NCBI RefSeq assembly: GCF_030294945.1
Contig: NZ_AP018448.1
Span: forward strand, 1,240,001-1,304,000
DNA from: Streptomyces graminofaciens
GTDB lineage: Bacteria > Actinomycetota > Actinomycetes > Streptomycetales > Streptomycetaceae
DNA length: 64,000 nt
Reading direction: 5' to 3'
Shown here: piece by piece, positions 10,457 to 31,993 of the stretch
Numbering within the stretch: position 1 is the first letter of the stretch
Layout: each line of letters starts with the position of its first letter
Made by a program: the position numbers and the translations under genes
The notes under the pieces: model-generated
What the model saw: the letters and a program-made list of their open reading frames with translations, nothing else
Databases searched by the model: none
What the model was told of the DNA's origin: nothing

Positions 10457-11689
10457 CTAGTGGGCCACCGCGGCCGCGCCGTGCTCGTCGACGAGCGCGC
10501 CGGTGGTGAAACGGTCGAGCGAGAAGGGGGCGTTGAGGGCGTGCGGGGTGTCGTGGGCGATGGTGTGGGCGTAGACCCAGCCGACGCCCGGGGTGGCCTT
10601 GAAGCCGCCCGTGCCCCAGCCACAGTTGAGGTAGAGGTTGTCCACCGGGGTGAGGCCGATGATCGGCGAGGCGTCGGGGCTGACGTCCACGATGCCGCCC
10701 CAGGTGCGCAGGACGTGGGCCCGGGCGAAAACCGGGAAGAGCTCCAGGGCCGCCGACATCTGTTCCTCGATGATGTGGAAGGCGCCGCGCTGGGTGTAGG
10801 AGTTGTACGCGTCGATGCCCGCGCCCATGACCAGCTCGCCCTTGTGCGCCTGACTGACGTACACGTGGACCGCGTTGGACATGACGACCGTGGGGTGGAC
10901 CGGCTCCAGCAGTTCGGAGACCAGGGCCTGCAACGGGTGGCTCTGCAGCGGGAGTTCGATGCCCGCCATGGCGGCGAGGACCGAGGTGTGGCCCGCGGAG
11001 CAGAGCGCCACCTTGCCCGCGGCGATGGGGCCGAGGCTGGTCTGGACTCCGACCACCCGGCCGCCGACCACGTCCAGGCCGGTGACCTCGCAGTTCTGGA
11101 TGATGTCGATACCGGCCGCGTCGGCCGAGCGGGCCAGGCCCCAGGCCACGTGGTCGTGCTTCGCGATGCCGGCGCGTGGCTGGTAGGTGCCGCCGAGGAC
11201 CGGGTAGCGCACATCCGGGGAGATGTTGACGATCGGGCAGACTTCCTTGACCTGCTCGGCGTCGAGCCACTCCGCGTCCACGCCGTTGAGGCGGTTCGCC
11301 TCCACCCGGCGCACGCTGTCGCGGACGTCCTGCAGGCTGTGCGCGAGGTTCAGCACGCCGCGCTGGGAGAAGAGGATCGGGTAGTCGAGCTCCTCCGCGA
11401 GCCCCTCCCACAGCTTGAGGGCGTGCTCGTAGATGCCCGCGCTCTCGTCCCACAGGTAGTTGGAGCGGATGATCGTGGTGTTGCGGGCCATGTTGCCGCC
11501 CGCCAGCCAGCCCTTCTCCAGCACGGCGACGTTGGTGATGCCGTGGTTCCTCGCCAGGTAGTGGGCGGTGGCCAGCCCGTGGCCGCCGCCACCCACGACG
11601 ATCACGTCGTACGAGCGCTTAGGCTCGGGCGTGCGCCACAGCCAGTCGGGGTGTTCGGGGAGCGCGGCGCCTGGGGTGCGGGGGCTCAT
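10457..11689 (-). CDS. soxB: Sarcosine oxidase beta subunit
   Basis: A 410-residue flavoprotein of the DAO family. FAD-binding motif [22 protein letters not shown] lies near residues 29-50. Subunit-specific stretches are [20 protein letters not shown], the long FAD domain, and the C-terminal [15 protein letters not shown] that closes on the flavin. It holds the FAD and the covalently bound FMN where sarcosine is oxidised. The ATG overlaps the glyA stop by 4 nt (ATGA), and soxDA begins 11 bp downstream. The gene order glyA-soxBDAG is the usual one, apart from the fused D and A. Confidence 0.96.
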
Positions 11690-12969
11690 CGGGCGTCTCC
11701 GTGTTCCGAGAGGTGCGGGTAGAGCGGGTGTTTGGCGGCCAGCGCCTCCGTACGGGCGCGCAGGGCGCCGATGTCCGGACCGGGCTGGAGGGCCAGCGCG
11801 ATCACGTCGGCGACCTCGGTGAAGTCGTCCTCGGTGAAGCCCCGGGTGGCCAGCGCGGGGGTGCCGATGCGCAGGCCCGAGGTGACCATGGGCGGGCGCG
11901 GGTCGAAGGGGACGGCGTTGCGGTTGACGGTGATGCCGATCTCGTGGAGCAGGTCCTCGGCCTGTCGGCCGTCGAGCTCCGATTCCCGCAGGTCGACGAG
12001 GACGAGGTGGACGTCCGTGCCGCCGGTCAGCACCTTCACCCCGGCGGCCGCCGCGTCGGGGCGGGTGAGGCGTTCGGCGAGGATGCGGGAGCCGGCCAGC
12101 GTACGGGCCTGGCGTTCGGCGAACTCCTCGGACGCGGCGACCTTGAACGACACCGCCTTCGCGGCGATGACGTGCTCCAGCGGTCCGCCCTGCATCCCCG
12201 GGAACACCGCCGAGTTGATCTTCTTGGCGAGGTCGGCCTCGTTGGTGAGGATGACGCCGCCGCGCGGACCGCCGAGCGTCTTGTGGGTCGTCGTGGTCGT
12301 CACATGGGCGTGCGGGACGGGGTTGGGGTGCAGCCCGGCGGCGACCAGGCCGGCGAAGTGGGCCATGTCGACCATCAGCAGGGCGCCCACCTCGTCGGCG
12401 ATCCGCCGGAAGGCCGCGAAGTCCAGCTGCCTCGGGTACGCCGACCAGCCCGCGATGATCATCTTGGGGCGGTGTTCCTTGGCGAGCCGCTCGACCTCGT
12501 CCATGTCGACGAGGTTGTCCTCCGCGGCCACGTGGTACGGCACGACGTTGAGCATCTTGCCGCTGTAGTTGATGCGCATGCCGTGGGTGAGGTGCCCGCC
12601 GTGCGCGAGGTCGAGCCCGAGGATCGTGTCGCCCGGCTGGAGCAGGGCGAAGAAGACGGCGGTGTTGGCCTGGGCGCCCGAGTGCGGCTGGACGTTGGCG
12701 TAGCCCGCGCCGAAGAGGGCTTTGACCCGCTCGATGGCGAGCCGCTCGGTGACGTCGACGTGTTCGCAGCCGCCGTAGTACCGGCGTCCGGGGTAGCCCT
12801 CGGCGTACTTGTTGGTCGCGACCGAGCCCTGCGCCTCCATCACGGCGGTGGGCGCGAAGTTCTCCGAGGCGATCATCTCGAGGGTGGACTGCTGGCGGTG
12901 CAGTTCGGCGCGCAGGGCTTCGTGGACCTCGGGGTCCAGCTGCGCCAGGGGGGTGTTCAGCGCGCTCAT
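11686..12969 (-). CDS. glyA: Serine hydroxymethyltransferase
   Basis: A 427-residue PLP enzyme interconverting glycine plus 5,10-methylene-THF and serine. Family motifs: [38 protein letters not shown], and the PLP-lysine segment [14 protein letters not shown]. The start is set by ATGA overlap with the folD stop; a longer frame would run into folD. In this operon it condenses the glycine and methylene-THF released by dimethylglycine and sarcosine oxidation. A second housekeeping glyA is likely elsewhere in the genome (inference). Confidence 0.97.
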
Positions 12970-13826
12970 ACGGCGTTCACGTTCCTCTCGGCGGCCTCGA
13001 CGACATTGGCGAGCAGCATGGCTCGGGTCATGGGGCCCACGCCCCCGGGCATCGGCGCCAGCCATCCGGCGACCGTGGTGGCCTCCGGGTGTACGTCGCC
13101 GACCAGCCCTTGTTCGGTGCGGGTGATACCGACGTCCAGGACGGCCGCGCCGGAACGCAGCATGTCCTTGGTGATCAGTCCGGGCGATCCTGCGGCGGCG
13201 ATGACGATGTCGGCCTCACGTGTGTGCCAGGCCAGGCCCTTGGTTCCGGTGTGGCAGAGGGTGACGGTGGCGTTCTCCGAGCGGCGGGTCAGCAGCAGCC
13301 CGATGGGCCGCCCGACCGTGATGCCGCGTCCGATCACGCACACCCGCGCCCCGGCGAGCGGCACCTCGTACCGGCGGAGCAGTTCGACGATGCCGCGCGG
13401 GGTGCACGGCAACGGGGCCTCGACGCCGAGGACGAGCCGGCCGAGGTTGACGGGATGCAGGCCGTCGGCGTCCTTGGCCGGGTCCATGCGTTCCAGTACG
13501 GCGTTGGCGTCGAGGTGGCGCGGGAGCGGAAGCTGGACGATGTAGCCGGTGCAGGCCGGGTCGGCGTTGAGTTCGTCGATGACGTCCTCGACCTGCCGCT
13601 GCGAGGCGTCGGCAGGCAGGTCCCGGCGAATCGAGGCGATGCCCACCTGCGCGCAGTCGCGGTGCTTGCCGGCGACGTAGGCACGACTGCCGGGGTCGTC
13701 GCCGACCAGGACCGTGCCGAGCCCGGGCGGGCGGCCACCGGTGGCCGTCAACTTGGCGACGCGCTCGGCGAGTTCGCGGCGGATGTCGGCAGCGGTCGCC
13801 TTGCCGTCAAGCAGCTGTGCGGTCAC
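12966..13826 (-). CDS. folD: Bifunctional methylene-THF dehydrogenase/methenyl-THF cyclohydrolase
   Basis: A 286-residue FolD. Conserved features: [23 protein letters not shown] (catalytic Tyr and Lys region), [40 protein letters not shown], the NADP-binding [13 protein letters not shown], and the C-terminal [14 protein letters not shown]. It oxidises 5,10-methylene-THF to 10-formyl-THF, which the PurU protein of this island can hydrolyse. The start ATG lies 146 bp from the dimethylglycine oxidase stop, with a dispersed repeat in between, so it may still be on the same transcript. Confidence 0.97.
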
Positions 13827-13972: not shown

Positions 13973-16447
<2,475 letters not shown>

Positions 16448-16450
16448 TCA

Positions 16451-16486
16451 GTTGCTGTCTGCGCAACATGGTTCAGGTTGCGCAAC
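16451..16486. promoter_or_regulatory. Paired 17-bp operator before dimethylglycine oxidase
   Basis: Site 1 is GTTGC-TGTCTGC-GCAAC (16451-16467), with perfect arms. After 2 bp, site 2 is GGTTC-AGGTTGC-GCAAC (16470-16486). The centres are 19 bp apart. The same arrangement occurs at seven other promoter regions of the island. Probably bound by the IclR protein encoded at 26077 (inference). Confidence 0.8.
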
Positions 16487-16559
16487 TCAATGTGCCTGCC
16501 CCGAGGAGGGGGTGTCAAGGGGTCCGTGAGGGGAGGAAAAAGGCCCCGAACACGGCGAT

Positions 16560-16601
16560 GCCCGGCGGGCGGCGCACACGTGTGCACACCGCCCGCCGGG
16601 C
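16560..16601 (-). terminator. Strong hairpin after the betaine transporter operon
   Basis: GCCCGGCGGGCGG (16560-16572) pairs perfectly with CCGCCCGCCGGGC (16589-16601). The loop contains a further palindrome, GCACACGTGTGC. It lies 26 bp past the end of the substrate-binding-protein gene, before the dmgO promoter region. Confidence 0.85.
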
Positions 16602-16626
16602 ATGTTCGACCACCCCGGAGCAGGGG

Positions 16627-17604
16627 TCACTTGATCCAGGCGTCGACCTTGTCGCGGTTGGCCTCGACCCACTTCTTCGCCGCCGCCTCGGGCGCCATCT
16701 TGTCCACCGCGATGTACTTGGCCACGGTGTTCTGGTCGTCGTTCGTCCAGCTGAAGTTCTTCACCAGGTCATAGGCGGGGCTGCCCGACTTGGCGAACTT
16801 CGCGCTGACGATCTTGTCGAGGTCGTACACGGGGTAGTCGCAGGCGACCTTCTCCGCGTCGGCGTCACAGCCGTCCGTGTACTTGGGCAGGTTCACCTTG
16901 ACCAGGGGCACCTCGGACAGGAACCACTGCGGCTCGTAGAAGTAGCCGATCACCCATTCCTTGTTCTTCTCGGCCTTGCGGAAGGCCTGGATGAGCGCGG
17001 TCTCGCTGCCCGCGTACACCACCTTGAAGTCCAGCTTCAGGTTCTTCACCAGCGCCTCGTCGTTGGTGACGTACGACGGGTCGCCGTCCAGGAGCTGGCC
17101 CTTGCCGCCCGACTCGGACGTCTTGAACTTCGAGGCGTACTTGTTGAGGTTCTTGTAGTCGGTGATGTCCGGGTGGGCCTTGGCCAGCCACGGCGGCACG
17201 TACCAGCCGATGATGCCTTTGTTGCCGGTCGAGCCGGCCTCCACGGCGGTCTTCTGGTCGGTGATGTACTTCTTCTTCAGATCGTCGTGGCCCCAGTTCT
17301 CGATGACGGCGTCGACCTCGCCCGTCCCGAAGCCCTGCCAGGCGATCTCCTCCTTCAGGTCCTTCTGGGTGACCGTACAGCCGAGGTCGTGCTCCGCGAC
17401 GTACGCGACGACCGCCGCGTCCGCCTCGTAGCCCACCCACGGGTTGACGGCGAGGTTGAAGGCTCCGCACTTGCCGGAGTCGCCCGAGCTGTCCGAGGCC
17501 GAGGAGCTGTCACCGACCTTCGCGCCGCCACAGGCGGTGAGGGTGAGACCGAGAACGGCCAGACCGGCCGCGCCGACTCTCCACTGACGTACTTGTGTTG
17601 CCAT
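16627..17604 (-). CDS. Glycine betaine/choline ABC transporter substrate-binding lipoprotein
   Basis: A 325-residue OpuAC/ProX-type binding protein. The signal peptide ends in a lipobox (LTLTACGG), so it is a membrane-anchored lipoprotein. The mature part has NLAVNPWVGYEADAAVVAYV, the Trp-containing VIENWGHDDLKKKY and GIIGWYVPPWLAKAHP; tryptophans of this kind form the aromatic box that cages quaternary amines. The start ATG follows AAGGAG, which overlaps the permease stop, and the gene ends at the strong hairpin at 16560. It is the last gene of the betB-ATPase-permease-binding protein operon. Choline versus betaine preference cannot be told from sequence. Confidence 0.95.
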   Translation of the reverse strand: MATQVRQWRVGAAGLAVLGLTLTACGGAKVGDSSSASDSSGDSGKCGAFNLAVNPWVGYEADAAVVAYVAEHDLGCTVTQKDLKEEIAWQGFGTGEVDAVIENWGHDDLKKKYITDQKTAVEAGSTGNKGIIGWYVPPWLAKAHPDITDYKNLNKYASKFKTSESGGKGQLLDGDPSYVTNDEALVKNLKLDFKVVYAGSETALIQAFRKAEKNKEWVIGYFYEPQWFLSEVPLVKVNLPKYTDGCDADAEKVACDYPVYDLDKIVSAKFAKSGSPAYDLVKNFSWTNDDQNTVAKYIAVDKMAPEAAAKKWVEANRDKVDAWIK

Positions 17605-17616
17605 GGTCCGTGCTCC

Positions 17617-22206
<4,590 letters not shown>

Positions 22207-22231
22207 GCGCCAAGCCCCTCAGCCGAAATGC

Positions 22232-22267
22232 GTTGCGCATTGTGCATCAAATTGCTTGTGGTGGAAC
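22232..22267. promoter_or_regulatory. Paired 17-bp operator before betB
   Basis: GTTGC-GCATTGT-GCATC (22232-22248) and, 2 bp on, ATTGC-TTGTGGT-GGAAC (22251-22267). Nine of ten arm bases match GTTGC/GCAAC in the first site and eight of ten in the second. It starts 26 bp upstream of the betB GTG. Confidence 0.7.
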
Positions 22268-22375
22268 ACCATGGCCAACGTCATAGACCTGCGTCAAGAG
22301 GTTGGAGGATGACGATTCAGCCAGCGGACACTTCCGCGACCAACTCTTGACCGCGAGCGAAGTCGAGCCGACCAT

Positions 22376-22411
22376 GTTGCGTATCGCTCACCTTGTTGTG
22401 CAATACGCACC
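22376..22411. promoter_or_regulatory. Paired 17-bp operator before purU
   Basis: GTTGC-GTATCGC-TCACC (22376-22392) and, 2 bp on, GTTGT-GCAATAC-GCACC (22395-22411). It ends 13 bp before the purU GTG. The pair lying here supports that GTG as the true start, rather than an upstream in-frame ATG that would put the operator inside the gene. Confidence 0.7.
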
Positions 22412-22424
22412 GACGGAGGCCGAC

Positions 22425-23306
22425 GTGTCCCCTAACACCCCACGACCGCAATCTGGCCGTGAGTTCGTCCTCACCCTCTCGTGTCCCGACAGCGCCGGAC
22501 TGGTCCATGCAGTGAGCGGCTTCCTCGTCAGGAACTCGGGCAACATCCTGGAGAGCCAGCAGTTCGATGATCGACTCCAGGGCCGATTCTTCATGAGGGT
22601 CCACTTCGACGTCTCCGATCCGGACGCGAATCTGAAAAATCTGCGTTACCGATTCGGTCCCGTCGCCGAGGCGTACCGCATCTCGTGGACCCTGCGCGAG
22701 GCGTCCACCCCGACCCGGACGCTCATCATGGTGTCCAAGTTCGGCCACTGCCTCAACGATCTGCTCTTCCGCCGGCGCACCGGCGCCCTGAACATCGAGA
22801 TCCCCGCGATCGTCTCCAACCATCGCGACTTCGAGGGGCTGGCGGAGACCTACGGTGTCCCCTTCCATCACATCCCGGTCACCAAGGACACCAAGGCCGA
22901 GGCCGAGGCGCGCCTGCTGGAGCTGGTGCGCGAGCTGGACGTGGACCTGGTGGTGCTGGCCCGCTACATGCAGATCCTCTCCGACGACCTGTGCAAGCAG
23001 CTCGAGGGCCACGCCATCAACATCCACCACTCCTTCCTCCCCAGCTTCAAGGGCGCGCGTCCGTACGAGCAGGCCTACGACCGTGGTGTGAAGCTCGTCG
23101 GCGCGACGGCGCACTATGTGACTCCGGACCTCGACGAGGGCCAGATCATCGAGCAGGACGTCGTCAGGGTCGACCACTCGCTCGACCCCCGGGACCTGGT
23201 CACGGTCGGCCGGGACGTCGAGGCCCAGGTACTCGCGCACGCCGTGAAGTGGCACAGCGAGAACCGCGTCATGGTGTACGGCAACCGCACGGTGGTCTTC
23301 CGCTGA
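22425..23306 (+). CDS. purU: Formyltetrahydrofolate deformylase
   Basis: A 293-residue PurU: an N-terminal ACT domain (FVLTLSCPDSAGLVHAVSGFLV) and a C-terminal formyltransferase-like hydrolase domain (MVSKFGHCLNDLLFR, VVLARYMQILSDDLC, INIHHSFLPSFKGARPYEQAYDRGVKLVGATAHYVT; the Asn, His and Asp of the catalytic set are present). It hydrolyses 10-formyl-THF to formate and THF, regenerating the acceptor for demethylation. The GTG start follows GGAGG; an ATG at 22302 gives a longer frame but without a ribosome site and across the operator. It is the only gene of the island on the + strand besides iclR. Confidence 0.95.
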   Translation: MSPNTPRPQSGREFVLTLSCPDSAGLVHAVSGFLVRNSGNILESQQFDDRLQGRFFMRVHFDVSDPDANLKNLRYRFGPVAEAYRISWTLREASTPTRTLIMVSKFGHCLNDLLFRRRTGALNIEIPAIVSNHRDFEGLAETYGVPFHHIPVTKDTKAEAEARLLELVRELDVDLVVLARYMQILSDDLCKQLEGHAINIHHSFLPSFKGARPYEQAYDRGVKLVGATAHYVTPDLDEGQIIEQDVVRVDHSLDPRDLVTVGRDVEAQVLAHAVKWHSENRVMVYGNRTVVFR

Positions 23307-23320
23307 GCGGTACGGCAGGA

Positions 23321-23395
23321 CGGCGGGGCGGAGCTGGGGGTCCAGCTCCGCCCCGCCGCCGTATACGGGCGTGAGGGGCTTCGCCCCCCTCACGC
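23321..23395. terminator. Two hairpins between purU and the MetF-like gene
   Basis: A 17-bp perfect stem, CGGCGGGGCGGAGCTGG (23321-23337) with its complement at 23342-23358, is followed by a second hairpin: GCGTGAGGGG (23370-23379) with CCCCTCACGC (23386-23395). They separate convergent genes and probably terminate both. Confidence 0.85.
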
Positions 23396-23407
23396 ACGCA
23401 TCAAAAC

Positions 23408-24244
23408 TCAGCCCTCGAGCCGCGCGAGCACCGCGCGGCGCCACGCCTCCGTCTCGGCGATCTGGTTGAACGTGAACAGGTGCAGGCCCGCCACACCCGC
23501 CGAAGGGGCGGTGAGCGCGTCCTCGGCGCGGGTCAGCAGCCTCTCCGGCGAATAGCCCCCAGGCGTCGCGAACCGCACGAACCACGAGGCGTGCTTCGTC
23601 AGGAAGCGCGTCGACTCCCCCACACCGATCTTCGTCGCCATGGCCAGCAGCTTCGCCCGCTGCACCGGCCCGGCCACCCCCAGGTGCACCGGCAGACCGA
23701 CGTCCCGGCGCCGTATCCGCGCGATCCACTCCCCGAGCACCCGCGGATCGAAGCACAGGTTGCTCACGATGTACGTGGCGTGCTCGCGCTTGTCCCACAT
23801 CGCCTGGATGGTGATGTCGTCATGGATGAGCGGATGACTCTCGGGGTAACCGGTGACGCCGACATGCGCGAAGGGCCTGCCCAACTCGCTGAGCCTGCGC
23901 AGCACCGGCAGCGCCCCGTCGTAGGTCCCGGCCGGCGGATCGGCGTCGCCCGCCGGGACGAAGACGTCGTCCACGCCCGACGCGCGGAGCCTGTCGACGA
24001 CGTCCTTCAGCTGTGCGTCGTCCCGCAGCAGCCGCGCCGGCACATGCGGGACGACGCGGTAGCCGTGCGCCGCGAGCCGGGCGGTGAGATCGAGGGTCGG
24101 CTCCAGGCCCTTGACCGGCGACGCCGTCACCGTGACGACGACGTCGCGCGGGACATGGGCGAGGACCTTGTCCTCGGTGGCCTTCGCGGGCAGCACCTCG
24201 TAGCGGACGCTCTCCAGCAGCGTCCTCAGCCCTGCGGCACCCAA
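23408..24244 (-). CDS. Methylenetetrahydrofolate reductase-like protein
   Basis: A 278-residue TIM-barrel protein resembling MetF: ATEDKVLAHVPRDVVVTVTASPVKGLEPTLDLTARL, FVPAGDADPPAG, FAHVGVTGYPESHP and AGVAGLHLFTFNQ near the end. True MetF reduces methylene-THF to methyl-THF with NADH/FAD. This copy is shorter and divergent, as in the MetF-like genes placed beside one-carbon demethylation genes, so a folate role is likely but the reaction is not certain. It starts with TTG, 3 bp after the choline dehydrogenase stop, with no clear ribosome site, which implies translational coupling. Confidence 0.78.
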   Translation of the reverse strand: MGAAGLRTLLESVRYEVLPAKATEDKVLAHVPRDVVVTVTASPVKGLEPTLDLTARLAAHGYRVVPHVPARLLRDDAQLKDVVDRLRASGVDDVFVPAGDADPPAGTYDGALPVLRRLSELGRPFAHVGVTGYPESHPLIHDDITIQAMWDKREHATYIVSNLCFDPRVLGEWIARIRRRDVGLPVHLGVAGPVQRAKLLAMATKIGVGESTRFLTKHASWFVRFATPGGYSPERLLTRAEDALTAPSAGVAGLHLFTFNQIAETEAWRRAVLARLEG

Positions 24245-24247
24245 CGT

Positions 24248-25924
24248 CTACCCGGCCTGCTGCTGGTCGTCGCGGTGGCGGTAGTACACGGCCTCGGAGG
24301 CTGGCAGCGGCTTCTTGCCGAGGATCAGGTCGGCGGCCTTCTCCGCGATCATCATCACCGGCGCGTAGATGTTGCCGTTGGTGACGTACGGCATCACCGA
24401 GGCGTCGACGACGCGCAGCCCCTCCACGCCGTGCACCCGCATGCTCTCCGGGTCGACGACAGCCATCTCGTCGGCGGAGGGGCCCATCTTGCAGGTGCAG
24501 GACGGGTGCAGAGCCGTCTCGCCCTCCTTGGCGACCCATTCGAGGATCTCCTCGTCCGTCTCCACCTTCGCCCCGGGCGAGACCTCACCGTCGTTGTAGG
24601 GGGCAAGGGCGGGCTGGTTGAGGAGCTTTCGCGCGACCCGGATCGCCTCGACCCACTCGCGGCGGTCCTGCTCGGTGGACAGGTAGTTGAAGCGCAGCGC
24701 CGGGTGTTCGCGCGGGTCCTTGCTCTTGATCTTCACCGAGCCGATGGCGTCGGAGTACATGGGGCCCACGTGCACCTGGTAGCCGTGGCCGCCGGCGGGC
24801 GAGGAGCCGTCGTAGCGGACGGCGATGGGCAGGAAGTGGAACATCAGGTTGGGGTAGTCCACGTCGTCGTTGCTGCGGGCGAAGCCGCCGGCCTCGAAGT
24901 GGTTGGTCGAGGCCGGGCCCTTGCGGAAGAGCCACTGGAGCCCGATGAAGGGGGCACGCCACTTGGCCATGTACGGCTGCATGGAGACGGGCTGCTTGCA
25001 GGCGTACTGGACGTAGACCTCCAGGTGGTCCTGCATGTTCTCGCCGACGCCCGGGAGATCGTGGACGACGTCGATGCCGAGGGCGCTCAGTTCCTCCGCG
25101 TTGCCGACGCCGGAGAGCTGGAGCAGTTGCGGGGAGTTGATCGCGCCGCCGCAGAGGATGACCTCCTTGGCGCGGACCTGCGTCAGGGCGCCCTTGCCGC
25201 GCTGGTACTCGACGCCGACGGCCTTCTTGCCCTCGAAGAGGACGCGGGTGACCAGGGCGCGGGTGGTGACGGTGAGGTTGGGACGCTTCCTGACGGGCTT
25301 GAGGTACGCCTTGGAGGCCGACAGGCGGCGACCGCGGGAGACATTGCGGTCGAACTTGGCGAAACCTTCCTGGCGATAGCCGTTGACGTCCTCGGTGGGC
25401 GCGTAGCCCGCCTCCTGGGTGGCCTTGAGGAAGGCACCGAAGAGCGGGTTGGTGGCCGGGCCGCGTTCGAGGACGAGGGGGCCGTCGTGGCCGCGGAACT
25501 CGTCGTCCGGGTCGGCCGCGAGACAGTTCTCCATCCGGCGGAAGTACGGCAGACAGTGCGCGTAGTCCCAGCTCTCCATGCCGGGGTCGGCCGCCCAGCG
25601 TTCGTAGTCCATGGGGTTGCCGCGCTGGAAGATCATGCCGTTGATGCTGCTGGAGCCGCCGAGCACCTTGCCGCGCGCGTGGTAGATGCGCCGGCCGCCC
25701 ATGTGGGGCTCGGGTTCGGACTCGTACTTCCAGTCGTAGAACCGGCTGCCGATGGGATAGGTCAGCGCGGCGGGCATGTGGATGAACACGTCCCAGGGGT
25801 AGTCGGGCCGGCCGGCCTCCAGCACCAGGACCCGGTTGGCCGGATCCGCGGAGAGCCTGTTCGCCAGTGCACTGCCGGCCGATCCGCCGCCGACGATGAC
25901 GAAGTCGTACTGCAAGGGAGCCAT
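24248..25924 (-). CDS. betA: Choline dehydrogenase (GMC oxidoreductase)
   Basis: A 558-residue GMC-family flavoprotein with BetA length. FAD motif [19 protein letters not shown] (residues 6-24); GMC signatures [14 protein letters not shown] and [19 protein letters not shown]; the C-terminal active-site region [10 protein letters not shown] and [19 protein letters not shown]. It oxidises choline to betaine aldehyde at the membrane or with an electron acceptor. The start is the ATG after GAGGG; a longer frame to 25990 crosses the operator. It is divergent from iclR; the MetF-like gene follows on the same transcript. Other GMC alcohol oxidases are possible, but context strongly favours choline. 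Confidence 0.92.
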
Positions 25925-25974
25925 GGTGCCCTCGTCTCGCTCGCGCCATAGATACGCGAGGCATGCTAGTACTG

Positions 25975-26010
25975 GTAGCGCTATACGCACCAGGTTGCGA
26001 GCAACGCAAC
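25975..26010. promoter_or_regulatory. Paired 17-bp operator before choline dehydrogenase
   Basis: GTAGC-GCTATAC-GCACC (25975-25991) and, 2 bp on, GTTGC-GAGCAAC-GCAAC (25994-26010); the second has perfect arms. It lies 51-86 bp upstream of the betA ATG in the betA-iclR divergent region. Confidence 0.78.
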
Positions 26011-26039
26011 TTATAAGACCTTGGTTTCTACCCTGTTAC

Positions 26040-26070
26040 TTGCAATCGCGTTGTTTACTCCGCGTATAGT
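26040..26070 (+). promoter_or_regulatory. Candidate iclR promoter giving a leaderless transcript
   Basis: TATAGT (26065-26070) is a good -10 hexamer, placed so that transcription would begin at or next to the GTG at 26077. TTGCAA (26040-26045) is a possible -35 with a long 19-bp spacer. No ribosome site precedes the GTG, which fits a leaderless mRNA. Confidence 0.45.
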
Positions 26071-26085
26071 TTCGCTGTGAGCAAC
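26050..26085. promoter_or_regulatory. Paired 17-bp operator over the iclR start
   Basis: GTTGT-TTACTCC-GCGTA (26050-26066) is the weaker site; 2 bp on, GTTTC-GCTGTGA-GCAAC (26069-26085) covers the -10 end and the GTG start. Same 19-bp phase as the other pairs. The position suggests negative autoregulation. Confidence 0.6.
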
Positions 26086-26874
26086 CACAGCCAAGACACC
26101 GAAGCGACAAATTCACAGGCCGGCGGAGTGCAGTCGGTCGACCGCGCCATCAGCGTCCTGGAGATTCTGGCCCAGCGCGGCGAGGCGGGCGTCAGTGAAG
26201 TGGCCGCCGAGATCGATGTTCACAAGTCCACCGCGTTCCGTCTACTCGGTGCCCTGGAGTCACGCGGCCTGGTGGAACAGGCCGGCGAGCGCGGCAAGTA
26301 CCGCCTCGGCTTCGGCATCGTCCGGCTGGCCGGCGCGGTCACGGGCCGGCTCGACATCACCCAGCAGGGCCGCCCGATCTGCGAGCGTCTCGCCGAGGAG
26401 ATCGGCGAGACGGTCAACATCGCGGTGATGCAGGAGCAGTACGCGATCAACCTGTACCAGGTGCGCGGCCCCGCGGCCGTCGCCGCGCACAACTGGGTCG
26501 GCGAACTGACCCCGCTGCACGCGACGTCCAGCGGCAAGATCCTGCTGGCGCACCTGCCCGCCAGGCAGCGCACCGCGCTGCTGGCCGAGGCCGGCCTGAA
26601 GAAGGTCACCCCGCACACCATCACCGCGAAGGCGAAACTCGAGAAGAACCTCGCCGAGGCGCGGGAGCGCGGGTACGCCTGGACGCTGGAGGAGTTGGAG
26701 ATCGGGCTCCACGCCCTGGCCGCGCCGATCCGCGACAAGGACGGAGAGGTCATCGCGGCGGTCACCGCTTCCGGGCCCTCGTACCGGTTCACCGAGGAGC
26801 GGATGCACGAGCTGGCCCCCGCGCTGGTCAAGGGCGCGGAGGAGATCAGCCAGCGGATGGGTTACCTGGGCTGA
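26077..26874 (+). CDS. IclR-family transcriptional regulator of the betaine island
   Basis: A 265-residue regulator. The N-terminal winged helix-turn-helix spans roughly residues 17-75 (VQSVDRAISVLEILAQRGE, VSEVAAEIDVHKSTAFRLLGALESRGLVEQ given in parts), followed by the IclR effector domain (ETVNIAVMQEQYAINLYQVRG, LHATSSGKILLAHL, GYAWTLEELEIGLHALAAPI, AAVTASGPSYRF). IclR proteins usually act as tetramers of dimers on paired sites. It lies in the centre of the catabolic genes with a copy of their shared paired operator over its own start, so it is the obvious candidate regulator. The effector may be choline, betaine or a demethylation product (inference). Confidence 0.93.
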   Translation: MSNHSQDTEATNSQAGGVQSVDRAISVLEILAQRGEAGVSEVAAEIDVHKSTAFRLLGALESRGLVEQAGERGKYRLGFGIVRLAGAVTGRLDITQQGRPICERLAEEIGETVNIAVMQEQYAINLYQVRGPAAVAAHNWVGELTPLHATSSGKILLAHLPARQRTALLAEAGLKKVTPHTITAKAKLEKNLAEARERGYAWTLEELEIGLHALAAPIRDKDGEVIAAVTASGPSYRFTEERMHELAPALVKGAEEISQRMGYLG

Positions 26875-26884
26875 GCGCCCACGG

Positions 26885-28015
26885 CTAACCCTGGTGGGCG
26901 CCCAGGCGCTCGTTCACCCAGTCGTGGAAGGCGCCGATGTGGTGCTCGCTGGGCACGAGGACGCCGCCCTTGGCGTACATCCGGGAACTCATCCCGGGCT
27001 GCGTGCGCTCGCAGGCGTCGAAGTCCTGCCGGTTGACCCGGTCGAAGAGCTCCACGGACCGGCTGACGTCCTTGCCGCTGTCGACGACGTGCGGGAGGTA
27101 GAGCCAGTCGCACTCGACGATCGTGCGGTCGGCGGCCACCGGGTACATACGGTGGAAGATCACATGGTCGGGGACGAGGTTGATGAAGACCTGCGGCTTG
27201 ATGGTGATCGCGTAGTAGCGGCGGTCCTGTTCCTCGGCGACGCCTGGAATGCGGTCCAGGCCCTCGCTGCCGTCGACGGTGAAGCCCTGGATCTCCTCGC
27301 CGAACTCGGCGCCGTGGCCGACGTAGTACTGGGCGGCGTAGCCGTCGGCGAACTCCGGGAGCACCTCGGTGAGTTCGGGGTGGATCGTGGCGCAGTGGTA
27401 GCACTCCATGAAGTTCTCGATGATGAGCTTCCAGTTGGCCTGTACGTCGTAGACGATCCGCTTGCCGACGGAGAGGTTGTCGATGTCGTAGCGCTCGATG
27501 GACTCGACGTCGCCGAGGCGCTCGACGACCGCACCGATCACGTCCTCCTCGAAGGACGGCGGGTTCTCCGCCAGACAGACCCAGACATAACCGAGCCATT
27601 CGCGCACGGCCACGCTCGCCAGGCCGTACTCGGTGCGGCCGACGTCGGGCATCTTGGTGAGGTTGGGCGCCGCGACGAGCTTGCCGTTCAGGTCGTAGGT
27701 CCAGGCGTGGTACGGGCACTGGAAGGCCCGCTTGACCTCGCCGGTCTCCTCCGTGCAGAGCTTGGCGCCGCGGTGCCGGCAGACGTTGAAGTAGGCGCGG
27801 ATCGAGTTGTCCCGGGCGCGGGTCACGAGGATGCTCTCGCGGCCCACGTCGACGGTGCGGAAGGCGCCGGGCTTCGCCAGTTCGGAGGCGCGCGCGACGC
27901 AGAACCACATGGTCTCGAATATGCGCTCCTGCTCCTGGGCGAAAATGCCCGGATCCGTGTAGGAGGAGCCGGGGAGGGTGGCGATCAGGCTGTCCGGCAG
28001 GCTGGTCGAGGTCAC
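26885..28015 (-). CDS. Rieske-type oxygenase alpha subunit, probable glycine betaine monooxygenase
   Basis: A 376-residue aromatic-ring-hydroxylating-type oxygenase. The Rieske cluster ligands are Cys79/His81 (NVCRHRGAKLC) and Cys100/His103 (QCPYHAWTYDLNG). The mononuclear iron site is in NFMECYHCATIHPEL. Closest by eye to the GbcA/stachydrine-demethylase group, which hydroxylates an N-methyl group so that formaldehyde leaves. Context (BetA, BetB upstream in the pathway, dimethylglycine oxidase downstream) makes betaine to dimethylglycine the expected step. The GTG start follows GAGGAG; the frame extends to another GTG at 28054 without a ribosome site. It converges on iclR with only 10 bp between stops. 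Confidence 0.9.
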   Translation of the reverse strand: MTSTSLPDSLIATLPGSSYTDPGIFAQEQERIFETMWFCVARASELAKPGAFRTVDVGRESILVTRARDNSIRAYFNVCRHRGAKLCTEETGEVKRAFQCPYHAWTYDLNGKLVAAPNLTKMPDVGRTEYGLASVAVREWLGYVWVCLAENPPSFEEDVIGAVVERLGDVESIERYDIDNLSVGKRIVYDVQANWKLIIENFMECYHCATIHPELTEVLPEFADGYAAQYYVGHGAEFGEEIQGFTVDGSEGLDRIPGVAEEQDRRYYAITIKPQVFINLVPDHVIFHRMYPVAADRTIVECDWLYLPHVVDSGKDVSRSVELFDRVNRQDFDACERTQPGMSSRMYAKGGVLVPSEHHIGAFHDWVNERLGAHQG

Positions 28016-28081
28016 GGTGCACTCCTCGGGAAACGTCGTGGATCGGACTGTCACACGCCGGGAAGAGCGACTCCGGACGGT

Positions 28082-28117
28082 GTTGTGTATAGAGCAACGC
28101 TACGCGCCATATGAAAC
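28082..28117. promoter_or_regulatory. Paired 17-bp operator before the Rieske oxygenase
   Basis: GTTGT-GTATAGA-GCAAC (28082-28098) and, 2 bp on, TACGC-GCCATAT-GAAAC (28101-28117). On the coding (minus) strand the first site reads GTTGC-TCTATAC-ACAAC, so a possible -10, TATACA, lies inside the operator: a layout expected for repression. Confidence 0.72.
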
Positions 28118-28145
28118 CGCAGCATGGGATGTCGTGCGACCGCTG

Positions 28146-29309
28146 TCAAGAGGTGGCCGCGGCGAGCTGCTTGCGCCAGCGGGTGAACAGCCGCGGCTGG
28201 TTCATCCCGAGCACGGCGACCGGCTCACCGGCGCGCCGGTAGACGGCCAGGACGTTGCGGTCGTCCGCGGCGCCCTCCTCGATGGTGACGCTGTCGGCGC
28301 CGACCGAATGCCCGGCGAACTGGATCTTCACGCCGTACTGGTCCGACCAGAAGTACGGCGGCCGGGGCACGCCCGACTCCACCGCGCCCCCGGCCAGCAG
28401 CGTGGCGACGGCCACTGCGGGGCGCTCCAGCGCACCGGTCCAGTGTTCGACTCTGCGGTGGGCGCCCGCGCGGGGGTCGTACCAGTTGGCGCAGTCACCG
28501 ACCGCGACCACGCCGGCCAGGCTGCTGCGACCGTCGGCGCCGCACTTCACGCCGTTGTCGAGCGTGACGCCGGACCCTTCCAGCCACTCGACGCACGGGC
28601 GCGCGCCCACACCGACGACGACGATGTCGGCGGGGATCGTGCGACCGTCCTCCAGCAGGACGGCGTCGACCCGGCTCTCCCCGCTCAGCCCCTTGACGCC
28701 CACACCGCACAGCAGCCGTACACCGTGGTCGGTGTGGAGGCCGGAGACAATGGTGCCCATGTCGGCGCCGAGCGGGCCGGCGAGCGGGGTCGGGGCCGCC
28801 TCGATCACCGTCACGTCGAGGCCGAGGGCGTACGCCGTGGAGGCGACCTCGGCTCCGATGAATCCGCCGCCGATCACGACGAGCCGTCCGCCTCGGGCGA
28901 GTTCGTCCCGCAGGGCGAGCGCGTCGTCCAGGGTGCGCAGGACGTGCACTCCGGCCAGCCCGTCGGAACCGGGCAACCGCCGTGCGGCCGCGCCGGTCGC
29001 GATGACGAAGCCGTCGGCCCGGATCTCCCTGCCGTCGGCGAGCCGGACGGCACGCTCCCTGGCGTCCAGTCCGGTGGCGCGGGTGCCGAGCAGCCACTCC
29101 GCCCGCAGATCCTCGCCGTCCGTCTCCAGCACGAGGTCGGCCTCGCCGACCTCACCGGCCAGGAACTCCTTGGACAGCGGGGGCCGGTCGTAGGGACGGT
29201 GGGGCTCGTCACCGATGACGACCAGCCGCCCGTCGTAGCCCTGCTTCCGCAGCGAGCGCGCCGCCGACAGTCCGGCCAGCGAGGCGCCGACCACGGCCAC
29301 CGTCCTCAC
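28146..29309 (-). CDS. FAD-dependent ferredoxin reductase
   Basis: A 387-residue pyridine-nucleotide-disulfide-type reductase of the rubredoxin/ferredoxin reductase class. It has an N-terminal FAD site (TVAVVGASLAGLSAARSLRKQG), PYDRPPLSKEFL, a second nucleotide-binding site (LVVIGGGFIGAEVASTAYALG) and a conserved GVVAVGDCANW FAD contact. It should pass electrons from NAD(P)H to the Rieske ferredoxin encoded just before it. The GTG start overlaps the ferredoxin stop (GTGA). A longer upstream frame only shadows the ferredoxin gene. Confidence 0.92.
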   Translation of the reverse strand: MRTVAVVGASLAGLSAARSLRKQGYDGRLVVIGDEPHRPYDRPPLSKEFLAGEVGEADLVLETDGEDLRAEWLLGTRATGLDARERAVRLADGREIRADGFVIATGAAARRLPGSDGLAGVHVLRTLDDALALRDELARGGRLVVIGGGFIGAEVASTAYALGLDVTVIEAAPTPLAGPLGADMGTIVSGLHTDHGVRLLCGVGVKGLSGESRVDAVLLEDGRTIPADIVVVGVGARPCVEWLEGSGVTLDNGVKCGADGRSSLAGVVAVGDCANWYDPRAGAHRRVEHWTGALERPAVAVATLLAGGAVESGVPRPPYFWSDQYGVKIQFAGHSVGADSVTIEEGAADDRNVLAVYRRAGEPVAVLGMNQPRLFTRWRKQLAAATS

Positions 29310-29668
29310 GCGGGACCCCCGGCGAGCCGGGCTGACACGCAGGGCGGCAGGTTGGGGGCCTCCGTGGACACCTTGACGTAGATCATGCCGTCCTCGACGA
29401 CGACCTCGTGGGTGCGGACGGGGAGCTTGGCCGGCGGGGCGTCGACCGCTCCGGTCCTCAGGTCGAACTTCGAAGCATGCAGCGGGCATTCCACCTCGCA
29501 GCCCTCCAGCCAGCCGTCGGCGAGCGAGGCGTCCTGGTGGGTGCAGGTGTCGTCGATGGCGAACACCTCGCCGTCGTCGGTGTGGAACACCGAGACCGGC
29601 GGTTCGACATCGAGCCGGATGGCCTCGCCTCGCGGGAGATCCGCGAGACGGCACGCGGGAATCATCAT
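29306..29668 (-). CDS. Rieske [2Fe-2S] ferredoxin
   Basis: A 120-residue Rieske ferredoxin with both ligand pairs: CTHQ (in DDTCTHQDASLADGW) and CPLH (in EVECPLHASKFDLRTG). No signal peptide. It is the electron carrier between the reductase and a terminal Rieske oxygenase, presumably the one at 26885. The start region has two ATG codons in a row; the paired operator lies immediately upstream (29677-29712). Confidence 0.93.
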   Translation of the reverse strand: MMIPACRLADLPRGEAIRLDVEPPVSVFHTDDGEVFAIDDTCTHQDASLADGWLEGCEVECPLHASKFDLRTGAVDAPPAKLPVRTHEVVVEDGMIYVKVSTEAPNLPPCVSARLAGGPA

Positions 29669-29676
29669 GACACCTC

Positions 29677-29712
29677 GGTGCGTATAGCGAAACGGATTGC
29701 GGTAAGCGCAAC
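29677..29712. promoter_or_regulatory. Paired 17-bp operator before the Rieske ferredoxin
   Basis: GGTGC-GTATAGC-GAAAC (29677-29693) and, 2 bp on, ATTGC-GGTAAGC-GCAAC (29696-29712). It begins 9 bp from the ferredoxin start codon. Confidence 0.75.
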
Positions 29713-29858
29713 ATCAGTCTGAGGTCGCCCCGAACCCTTGTCAAGGCATCCAGAGAGCATGGAACCGGACCTCCAAGGGTTTCTTTTGACGCAACAGAGT
29801 GCGCAGTAAACAACAGCGAGGGGCGTCAGGAGCCCGCCGCCGTGGGCACATGAAGGCA

Positions 29859-29895
29859 GCCCGCCTCCCCGGCGCGCAAGGCCGGGGAGGCGGGC
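29859..29895 (-). terminator. Hairpin after the MBL hydrolase gene
   Basis: GCCCGCCTCCCCGGC (29859-29873) pairs perfectly with GCCGGGGAGGCGGGC (29881-29895) over a 7-nt loop, 27 bp downstream of the MBL-fold gene's stop. Confidence 0.85.
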
Positions 29896-29922
29896 GGGTT
29901 CCTGCTGGTGGGCGGCAGGCGA

Positions 29923-30558
29923 TCAGAAGCCTCGGTCGATCCACTCCTGGAGGTGCGGGGCCTCCGCGGCTACGGTGGTCCGCTCCCCGTGTCCGGTGTG
30001 CACGACGGTGTCGCCGGGCAGGGTCAGCAGCCGGTCCCGGATCGAGTCGACGATGGTCGGGAAGTCACTGTACGACCGTCCCGTGGCCCCCGGCCCGCCC
30101 GCGAAGAGCGTGTCACCGCTGAAGAGGGCTGTCAGGGCCGGCGCGTACAGACAGACCGCACCGGGAGCATGGCCGGGGGTGTGCAGCACGGTCAGCTCGA
30201 CGCCCGCGACCGTGAGGACCTGGCCGTCGGCGAGTTCGCCGTCGGGGGTCCGGTCGGGGTGGGTCTGTTTCCACAGCGGCAGATCGTCGGGGTGCAACAG
30301 GATCGGGGCGCCGGTGCGCCCGGCGAGGGCGGGCGCGGCGTCGATGTGGTCGTTGTGGGCGTGAGTGCACACGATGGCCCGCAGGGCGCGTCCACCGAGG
30401 GCTTCGGCGATCGCCTCGGCGTCGTGGGCGGCGTCGATGACGACGGCCTCGGTGTCGTCGCCGATGATCCACACGTTGTTGTCGACGTCCCAGGTGCCGC
30501 CGTCGAGCGAGAAGGTTCCCGAGGTGACGAGATGCTCGATGCGGGCGCCCGGCATCAC
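29923..30558 (-). CDS. MBL-fold metallo-hydrolase, likely formaldehyde-pathway thioester hydrolase
   Basis: A 211-residue metallo-beta-lactamase-fold hydrolase. Zinc ligands are visible: THAHNDHID (HxHxDH type), [10 protein letters not shown], and SGDTLF. This resembles glyoxalase-II-type thioesterases. Beside a mycothiol-dependent formaldehyde dehydrogenase it probably hydrolyses S-formylmycothiol to formate and mycothiol (known neighbourhood, activity inferred). Starts GTG at 30558 or ATG at 30555, overlapping the dehydrogenase stop; there is no ribosome site, so translation is coupled. Confidence 0.88.
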
Positions 30559-31640
30559 AGCACCACCACCGAGCGCAGGACATCGCCGCCGTGCATCCGC
30601 TCGAAGGCCTTCTCGACCTCGTCCAGCGCGATCGTCTCCGTGACGAAGGCGTCCAGGTCGAGGCGGCCCTGGAGATAGAGGTCGACGAGCATCGGGAAGT
30701 CACGGGAGGGCAGGCAGTCGCCGTACCAGGACGACTTCAGCGCGCCGCCCCGTCCGAACACGTCGAGCAGCGGCAGCTCGAGCTTCATCTCCGGGGTCGG
30801 CACCCCGACCAGGACGACCGTGCCGGCGAGGTCGCGGGCGTAGAAGGCCTGCTTGTACGTCTCCGGGCGGCCCACCGCCTCGATGACCACGTCGGCGCCG
30901 AAGCCGCCGGTCAGCTCGCGGATCGCCTCGACGGCGTCGGTGTCGCGCGAGTTGACGGTGTGGGTCGCGCCCAGCTTCCGGGCGGTCTCCAGTTTGCGGT
31001 CGTCGATGTCCACGGCGATGATCTTCGCCGCGCCCGCCAGGTTCGACCCGACGACGGCCGCGTCCCCGACGCCGCCGCAGCCGATGACGGCCACGGTGTC
31101 GCCGCGTCCGACGTTTCCGGTGTTGATGGCGGCGCCGATGCCGGCCATCACACCGCAGCCCAGCAGACCGACGGCGGCCGCCGAGGCGGCCCGGTCGACC
31201 TTGGTGCACTGCCCGGCCGCGACCAGCGTCTTCTCCGCGAAGGCCCCGATGCCCAGCGCGGGGGAGAGTTCGGTGCCGTCGAGGAGGGTCATCTTCTGCT
31301 TGGCGTTGTGCGTGTTGAAGCAGTACCAGGGGCGGCCGCGCTGACAGGCCCGGCACTGGCCGCAGACGGCTCGCCAGTTGAGGATGACGAAGTCACCGGG
31401 CGCGACGTCGGTCACGCCCTCCCCCACCGACTCCACGACACCCGCGGCCTCGTGGCCGAGGAGGAAGGGGAAGTCGTCGTTGATGCCGCCCTCGCGGTAG
31501 TGCAGATCGGTGTGACAGACCCCGCAGGCCTCGATCTTCACCAGCGCCTCACCCGGACCGGGGTCGGGCACGATGATCGTTTCCAGGCTGACGGGGGCGC
31601 CCTTCCCCCGCGCGACGACAGCACGGACCTGGTGAGTCAT
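30555..31640 (-). CDS. mscR: S-(hydroxymethyl)mycothiol dehydrogenase
   Basis: A 361-residue zinc-containing medium-chain dehydrogenase matching mycothiol-dependent formaldehyde dehydrogenase. Catalytic-zinc ligands are in [15 protein letters not shown], with [14 protein letters not shown]; structural zinc is in [15 protein letters not shown]; the nucleotide site is [14 protein letters not shown]. It oxidises the adduct of formaldehyde with mycothiol to S-formylmycothiol. In this island it removes formaldehyde from the Rieske demethylation. The ATG follows GAGGAG by 5 nt; a GTG 6 bp earlier is too close to that site. Confidence 0.93.
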
Positions 31641-31675
31641 GGCCACTCCTCAGCTGGTGCGAGACCTGAATCCAA

Positions 31676-31711
31676 GTTGCTCATTACGGCACACTCATCG
31701 TGTACCGCAAC
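31676..31711. promoter_or_regulatory. Paired 17-bp operator before the formaldehyde dehydrogenase
   Basis: GTTGC-TCATTAC-GGCAC (31676-31692) and, 2 bp on, TCATC-GTGTACC-GCAAC (31695-31711). The two outer arms are perfect and the two inner arms are degenerate. It lies 36-71 bp upstream of the ATG. Confidence 0.65.
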
Positions 31712-31993
31712 ACAGCATGGGGGAGGGTCGACCGAGGGTCAAGGATTGGACGTGCGTGGGGTTGGGGACCTGCCGGTGCGGTGGCGGCCAGGGGCCGGTG
31801 TCGGGTCCGGGTCGGGGTCCGGGGTCGGTGATGCGGCTACTCGGCGGGGTGCGGCGAGGGAGCGCGGGAGGGAGCCCGTGGCACTCCGGGGGCGGGGGCC
31901 TGCCCCTGTATCAGGGCGCGGCGTGATCAACCGCATCGGCGACGGTGCCGCCGCGCCGGGATCGACCAAGGACAGGGCTGCGAGCCGTACCCC

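Follow-up and report, generated by a model that had tools for sequence, protein, structure and literature searches.

Nine tandem pairs of 17-bp palindromes as candidate operators of one IclR-family regulator in a betaine island of Streptomyces graminofaciens

The window analyzed here is a stretch of 64,000 nucleotides from Streptomyces graminofaciens (RefSeq assembly GCF_030294945.1, contig NZ_AP018448.1, positions 1,240,001 to 1,304,000 of the forward strand); positions below are counted from its first letter. It carries an island of choline and betaine breakdown genes that includes a gene for an IclR-family regulator. The original prediction, made from this DNA, placed eight paired 17-base-pair (bp) operators upstream of the island genes and proposed the IclR protein as their reader. 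We confirm the paired-operator observation and extend it to nine pairs. The eight that had been claimed are all present, each consisting of two imperfect 17-bp palindromes with a 2-bp gap, 19 bp from start to start, but the total of eight fell short because the pair at 29779/29798 had been overlooked. Promoter coordinates were assigned by hand and then checked; the fractions give the relatives with TTGAC at the same spacing.

16451..16486, minus strand: dmgO tandem operator; -35 TTGACA 16513-16518, -10-like CACATT 16489-16494; TTGAC in 67/68 relatives
22232..22267, minus strand: betB tandem operator; -35 TTGACG 22292-22297, -10-like CATGGT 22268-22273; TTGAC in 90/96
22376..22411, plus strand: purU tandem operator; -35 TTGACC 22347-22352, -10-like GACCAT 22370-22375; TTGAC in 80/80
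25975..26010, minus strand: betA tandem operator; TTATAA adjoins its upstream edge; TTGAC in 0/106
26050..26085, plus strand: iclR tandem operator; overlaps the GTG start at 26077, with TATAGT 26065-26070 across the 2-bp gap; TTGAC in 0/118
28082..28117, minus strand: gbcA tandem operator; -35 TTGACA 28144-28149, -10-like CATGCT 28121-28126; TTGAC in 43/46 relatives keeping the pair
29677..29712, minus strand: fdx proximal tandem operator; -35 TTGACA 29739-29744, -10-like CAGACT 29716-29721; TTGAC in 108/108
29779..29814, minus strand: fdx distal (ninth) tandem operator; upstream of the -35; found in 61 relatives, versus 112 with the proximal pair
31676..31711, minus strand: mscR tandem operator; -35 TTGACC 31737-31742, -10-like CATGCT 31714-31719; TTGAC in 91/91

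The genes of the island were named by profile searches (Pfam, NCBIfam); THF stands for tetrahydrofolate.

11686..13065, minus strand: glyA, serine hydroxymethyltransferase
12966..13826, minus strand: folD-like methylene-THF dehydrogenase/cyclohydrolase
13973..16411, minus strand: dmgO, dimethylglycine-oxidase-like (FAD oxidoreductase and folate-binding domains), named from domain make-up and neighbors
16627..20717, minus strand: choline/betaine-type ATP-binding cassette (ABC) transporter; binding protein (sbp) 16627-17604, fused double permease (perm) 17617-19632, ATPase (atp) 19629-20717
20737..22206, minus strand: betB-like betaine aldehyde dehydrogenase (TIGR01804 at 593.7 bits, under the cut-off of 668.6)
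22425..23306, plus strand: purU, formyl-THF deformylase
23408..24244, minus strand: protein like methylene-THF reductase (MTHFR), "metF" in the counts below; weak Pfam match, below cut-off
24248..25924, minus strand: betA, choline dehydrogenase
26077..26874, plus strand: iclR, IclR-family regulator of 265 amino acids (aa); PF09339 at 56.3 bits and PF01614 at 152.4 bits, each above its cut-off; residues 47-57 form the recognition helix DVHKSTAFRLL
26885..28054, minus strand: gbcA-like Rieske oxygenase, probable glycine betaine demethylase (GbcA NCBIfam model at 226.3 bits, under the cut-off of 670; function from neighbors)
28146..29309, minus strand: gbcR, ferredoxin reductase, with a proposed GTG start
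29306..29668, minus strand: fdx, Rieske ferredoxin
29923..30558, minus strand: mbl, metallo-beta-lactamase-fold hydrolase
30555..31646, minus strand: mscR, S-(hydroxymethyl)mycothiol dehydrogenase (TIGR03451 at 699 bits, cut-off 513)

The GbcA-like, betB-like and dmgO-like proteins fall under the curated cut-off of every NCBIfam model shown, and their names come partly from domains and context. Together, the island enzymes would convert choline to glycine and serine, pass its methyl groups to folate and oxidize formaldehyde via mycothiol. The ABC permease is a single protein of 671 aa with two tandem permease stretches, and the betaine demethylase (26885-29668) resembles a three-part Rieske system of oxygenase, ferredoxin and reductase. 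The known GbcAB system has two parts.

Each 36-bp operator is built from two 17-bp palindromes with GTT/AAC ends and an A/T-rich centre. The proposed resemblance of the spacers to GTATAGC applies to some sites and not to the rest. Position 4 is G in 73% of cases among the 16 window sites (smoothed) and in 79% among 48 pairs from other families. In seven of eight promoter classes (betA being the exception), agreement with GTTGC is closer in the outer half-sites than in the inner, and in the other-family pairs the outer half-sites average 4.70 of 5 GTTGC matches compared to 3.73 for the inner. This greater strictness of the outer half-sites suggests that the 36 bp are read as one unit.

To judge chance, a weight matrix was built from the 16 sites with the tested promoter left out in turn. 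All eight claimed pairs ranked among the top nine of the 64-kb window, and the remaining place went to the ninth pair, which is also 19 bp apart, lies upstream of the Rieske ferredoxin gene and was outside the training set. Some single sites are weak (26050, 28101, 31695 and 22251 score 8-11 bits by the window matrix), and the nine pairs all score at least 23.5 bits. No shuffled pair reached 20.4 bits, either in 100 dinucleotide shuffles of the window (maximum 18.2) or in 2000 of pooled intergenic DNA (maximum 17.0). The leave-one-promoter-out ranking and the shuffles rule out a chance origin of the pairs. Across the genome, single GTTGC-N7-GCAAC sites (up to one mismatch allowed) show no enrichment, with 208 per strand versus 441 for the reversed pattern; the signal is therefore pairing and placement.

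The pairs are confined to the island in the 11.6-Mb genome. We scanned it with R1, a sequence-only profile of 51 operators: nine window rows, 39 of 56 sampled relatives' rows and three rows of the betaine/carnitine/choline transporter (BCCT) type described below, with one row (L088:6156) out of register. The nine island pairs took the first nine places with at least 16.7 bits, and the top match outside the island reached 13.0 bits; the scan scored 150 of 1073 first-look candidates and is not out of sample, as R1 includes the window's own sites. For this reason R2 was built from 44 of the 48 operator pairs of other actinomycete families. It gave 11 matches at E<=10, all within the island and covering seven of the nine pairs (150 of 768 candidates scored); both profiles may match one place on both strands, so that two matches need not mean two places. 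Random placement of the motif, the outcome that would have counted against a regulon, was not seen, and the two scans rule out a motif scattered over the genome. The genus- and class-wide profile runs below used stricter filters.

Among close relatives we examined 60 loci around close iclR orthologs, chosen from the upper part of the homolog list (contig-end matches and others skipped), and a further 80 named loci, the best 80 of 250 related stretches; nearly all of these are Streptomyces, with one Actinacidiphila and one actinobacterium. In the 60 relatives, sites of at least 12 bits were found 206 times at a distance of 19 bp and at most four times at any other distance up to 60 bp, and five shuffled matrices gave zero site pairs at 19 bp in the same loci. 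At a 9-bit threshold the counts were 345 at 19 bp, 27 at 56, 12 each at 26 and 55, and 10 at 20; the 56-bp peak is the distance between neighboring betA and iclR sites. Summed pair scores gave 397 at 19 bp, 40 at 26 and 22 at 20.

Per-gene counts used the 122 of 140 loci left after removal of identical iclR sequences, dropped loci with a cut-off gene start or a match beginning more than 25 residues in, and scored an upstream pair if it reached 18 bits within 250 bp. A pair was present upstream of dmgO in 67/67, betB in 99/99, purU in 82/82, betA in 106/106, iclR in 121/122, fdx in 113/113 and mscR in 93/97. Because betB and purU share a divergent region, as do betA and iclR, these counts overlap; betB and purU had a separate pair each in 80 loci, and betA and iclR in 103. 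No pair preceded genes that would lie inside the predicted operons (sbp 0/94, perm 0/87, atp 0/100, metF 0/90, gbcR 0/112, mbl 0/92, folD 0/1). Half-sites hold 1.37-1.96 bits per column, compared to 0.29-1.48 in the flanks.

Of the 833 pairs found altogether, 23 were not assigned to a known gene start. Among them are several dmgO pairs at the ends of loci and eight pairs that make up an additional class. This extra 19-bp pair, of distinct type, lies beyond mscR in L089 (17527), L047, L050, L054, L058, L091, L092 and L099. In L089, the only locus where the gene was identified, it is upstream of a BCCT gene, which extends the regulon in the expected direction. A molybdopterin oxidoreductase gene (L089:17589-19964; formate-dehydrogenase-like by guess) lies on the same strand directly upstream of that BCCT gene. 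The window itself holds an aconitase reading frame at 32668-33627 (319 aa) that matches about the first third of full-length AcnA models and appears to be a truncated remnant.

The pairs also follow the iclR gene across the genus. We surveyed 392 genomes of the same genus. A close iclR (E<1e-100) is present in 93 of them, and 92 of the 93 give at least two R1 matches at E<=0.05. In the remaining one, G061, the 20 kb fetched contain little of the island, and the weight matrix finds one pair at its iclR. A distant homolog only (E 1e-80 to 1e-93, 56-61% identity where seen) occurs in 110 genomes, 68 of which have an R1 match (61 one match, seven more). With neither IclR, one of 189 genomes matched; the 1e-80 limit excludes G168, which has a pair and an IclR at 2.1e-80, and four of the 189 were rechecked at a looser limit. 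In all seven distant-homolog clusters fetched the genes are reordered (gbcR-fdx, then iclR, mscR, dmgO and, if seen, gbcA and betB), with fdx and mscR again having 19-bp pairs upstream. R1 undercounts, since distant-homolog genomes with a single match held two pairs. Of the 392 genomes, 178 have the dmgO gene (E<=1e-200); 86 of these also have the close iclR, 89 the distant homolog and three neither. Of these three, G168 is the genome with an IclR just below threshold. The other two, G058 and G312, lack an IclR of this kind, and the roughly 20 kb surrounding their dmgO contain no pair. Close IclR paralogs (G153, G336, G201 and others; L163, L164) commonly lie 10-40 kb from each other, at times far away, and seem to stem from duplication or splitting of the island.

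Similar results were obtained in other actinomycete families. Of 296 genomes of the class, 41 have the IclR (E<=1e-68), and R1 matched 31 of these; among the 255 without it R1 matched six, fewer than chance expectation at E<=0.05. At least two of the 31 (G514, G621) have no match near the iclR found. In 20 fetched loci there are 51 pairs at 19 bp compared to at most nine at any other offset from 10 to 40, and they precede betB, purU, dmgO, fdx, mscR, a metF-like gene and iclR. Several of these distant loci have iclR beside dmgO, purU or mscR, with no close betA or betB in the 20 kb fetched. All 22 IclRs of the group in other families (47-71% identical) carry (V/I)H(K/R)ST in the recognition helix; its His is absent from all seven other IclRs in the fetched loci, which have Ala, Pro or Asn instead. 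Counting duplicates, 145 matches from the genus have the same helix as their consensus, and the eight distant homologs retain it with either Lys or Arg. In L212 and L213, two IclR genes of the group (about 70% and 50% identical to the window's) lie in one cluster with pairs nearby.

These data bear on the idea that the pairs are functionless and merely reflect the shared ancestry of similar promoters in close relatives. The first weight matrix did come from the same promoters that were later scored in relatives. However, the distal fdx pair, the clearest case, has half-sites at 1.37 bits between flanks that have drifted to 0.29 and 0.41, pairs reappear where the gene order differs and in other families, and a profile built from those families finds the island in the 11.6-Mb genome. 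Shared ancestry alone was rejected on these grounds, and we regard it as next to impossible.

What reads the sites is a separate matter. One regulon centred on the IclR, as the original prediction had it, is borne out insofar as operators and iclR co-occur across gene orders and bacterial families; that the protein binds them is what we infer from this. A different IclR paralog might instead read the operators, alone or sharing them, given that relatives often have two or three close paralogs, some adjoining a pair (L164, L212, L213). Yet the window's genome has pairs with only one IclR at E<=1e-80, and seven paralogs at 32-38% identity lack the recognition-helix His. We consider a reader other than the island IclR improbable.

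The position of the operators relative to the promoters is also conserved. At the six promoters listed above with a -35, TTGAC lies at -29 to -33 from the first operator base; elsewhere in the same 60 bp it occurs 21 times in 32592 positions. In the window, a hexamer follows TTGAC by 17-18 bp and ends 0-3 bp before the operator, reading CANNNT in five of six (GACCAT at purU); the relatives' mscR hexamer is mostly GATGCT. The predicted transcription start, seven bases on, falls at operator bases 4-7, inside the first palindrome, giving leaders of 41-71 bases, and five of the six TTGAC promoters have a purine-rich ribosome site near the start codon. The 56-61% IclR group shows this register in 15 of 16 pairs, compared to 0.24 expected, and the other families show it in 18 of 48, compared to about two expected, in a count that omitted L159 and took only pairs of at least 24 bits, leaving weaker pairs in L153, L154 and L157 uncounted. 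TATAnn had been proposed as the -10 at three pairs. It is plausible for iclR and betA only, and as a general promoter in the spacer it was dropped: an A/T centre is intrinsic to the IclR motif, and the TTGAC/CANNNT-like boxes are better supported and explain the six promoters better.

With predicted starts inside the operators, the second palindrome would be transcribed, and the palindromes could act as RNA leader hairpins rather than protein operators. Against this, conservation is seen in the bases themselves, the 19-bp spacing does not vary freely but is fixed, the distal fdx pair is upstream of its promoter and the iclR site covers a start codon. A role in RNA is therefore very unlikely, though less so than ancestry alone.

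Sites, spacing, restriction to the pathway, co-occurrence with iclR and promoter register are observed. We put at roughly 80% the probability that all nine pairs serve as operators for a single IclR-family repressor, the product of the gene at 26077-26874, which would bind as a tetramer and control the betaine pathway. In this mechanism two dimers would occupy each 36-bp operator on the same DNA face, because 19 bp is about two helical turns. At six promoters the operator directly follows a TTGAC-N17/18-CANNNT-like promoter, and the bound tetramer would cover the predicted start and block initiation, which makes repression the natural reading. At iclR the operator covers the GTG start codon, pointing to autorepression. 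A pathway metabolite would release the repressor and cause induction, most likely glycine betaine or dimethylglycine; these seem likelier signals than choline because several distant iclR genes have no close betA or betB in the 20 kb fetched. The induced set would comprise choline/betaine uptake, betA-betB oxidation, Rieske demethylation, one-carbon handling by dmgO-folD-glyA and purU, and formaldehyde removal by mscR-mbl.

The same IclR could use these operators to activate transcription, or to activate as well as repress it, in the manner of PcaU/PobR-type members. The family includes the activators PobR and PcaU (also according to a reference title in PMC8222616), and the distal fdx site is upstream of the -35, where an activator could act. 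However, six operators begin 0-3 bp past the -10-like box, over the predicted start, and the iclR operator lies over the start codon. Activators rarely sit over the transcription start. Activation is thus unlikely, although it is the alternative to repression by this IclR that we would take most seriously.

Several observations weigh against a single repressor regulon. The pairing is not uniform: looser thresholds show lesser distance peaks at 20, 26 and 55-57 bp, 20-bp spacing fits better for some betA (4/106) and iclR (12/122) pairs, and mscR pairs are weak (62/97 at 22 bits). A pair at every transcription unit, as had been claimed, is true in the window, but the gbcA pair is retained in just 52 of 112 relatives; loss of the motif where gene and iclR are both kept thus occurs at gbcA, in about half, while the other promoters keep theirs. 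The promoter register is absent from the betA, iclR and distal fdx pairs, which have no TTGAC, and from 30 of the 48 other-family pairs. R2 missed the iclR and mscR pairs, and its rows were chosen by a matrix descended from the window's sites, making the test out of sample and not blind. Of the 110 genomes with distant IclR only, 42 gave no profile match, and L215, one of the 20 distant loci, has no pair at 16 bits. In G338 (an assembly of about 1500 contigs) a pair precedes the gene for a betaine-type ABC ATPase, and the genome has no IclR at E<=1e-40.

Part of the co-occurrence is due to shared inheritance, since iclR and its targets are usually neighbors; the relatives are not independent of one another, and the pathway occurs without the regulator in just two of the genomes that serve as a test. 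Two or three IclR paralogs are present in many genomes, and in some of these more than one could be the acting regulator. The shared recognition helix fits one binding specificity but would follow from relatedness too, and may merely mirror it. Finally, residue-base correlations of IclR regulators link His27 with G/C at 10/22 and Lys28 with G/C at 7/25 (Suvorova and Gelfand 2021, PMC8222616, main text). The window IclR has both His27 and Lys28, and operator position 10 is T, where the published His27-G(10/22) correlation has G.

The main text of the same study (PMC8222616) reports that in 94 of 181 IclR-family groups the sites are in tandem, their centres 18-22 bp apart, and interprets such tandems as tetramer sites. 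It also describes a GTT-11-AAC subgroup of 17-bp odd palindromes near the gene start, with GTT...AAC ends, an A/T-rich centre and the consensus GTTYC...GRAAC. The window operators resemble this subgroup in their 17-bp palindromes, GTT/AAC ends, A/T-rich centre and 19-bp spacing, which is within 18-22, but differ at position 4, mostly G (GTTGC) where the consensus has Y (GTTYC). The words betaine and choline are absent from that main text. The original prediction knew of no described operator of this form. Judging from that main text, tandem geometry is an IclR family trait and the form is therefore not new; the regulon and its sequence appear to be. The TtgV-operator complex (PDB 2XRO), a DNA-bound IclR-family regulator, offers a model for two dimers on one long site, and the window IclR matches it over residues 18-218 (61.9 bits). 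TtgV controls efflux transporters (PMC8222616, main text), unlike the betaine regulon proposed here, and the comparison was made at the protein level. In the literature searched, which excluded supplements and most subscription journals, we found no report of this regulon and no named regulator of choline/betaine breakdown in actinomycetes.

BhcR regulates the beta-hydroxyaspartate cycle. Its model (NF045644) is the best named IclR model in NCBIfam for the window protein, at 202.8 bits but under the cut-off of 350, and the gene set of the window is a choline/betaine pathway, unlike that cycle. In proteobacteria, BetI (TetR) and GbdR (AraC) control choline/betaine genes. They serve the same metabolic task with other protein families and operators, whereas the regulator here is an IclR protein. 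Work by Meskys et al. in 2001 reportedly, by its title, found dimethylglycine and sarcosine breakdown genes of Arthrobacter to be grouped and linked to betaine catabolism. The island is like those clusters in grouping dimethylglycine/betaine breakdown genes. Passages of PMC3534580 name glyA, soxBDAG, sdaA and purU in such clusters, and describe enzymes with no regulator or operator.

Choline and betaine are common soil nutrients and osmolytes, and one regulator probably turns their whole pathway on and off. The analysis names a candidate for this regulator and a precisely defined operator, which has nine target sites in one strain and counterparts in other genera. It is tempting to go further: we lean, by a narrow margin, toward a promoter-operator cassette (TTGAC, N17-18, CANNNT and a 36-bp operator with strict outer and relaxed inner half-sites), undescribed in print, that would be read as a unit by one IclR tetramer in several actinomycete families and would link the uptake and demethylation of choline and betaine with the flow of one-carbon units through folate and with the detoxification of formaldehyde by mycothiol. 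As a compact part, the operator could be used in choline/betaine sensors. If the regulon is as proposed, formaldehyde detoxification would be switched on together with the demethylases that make formaldehyde.

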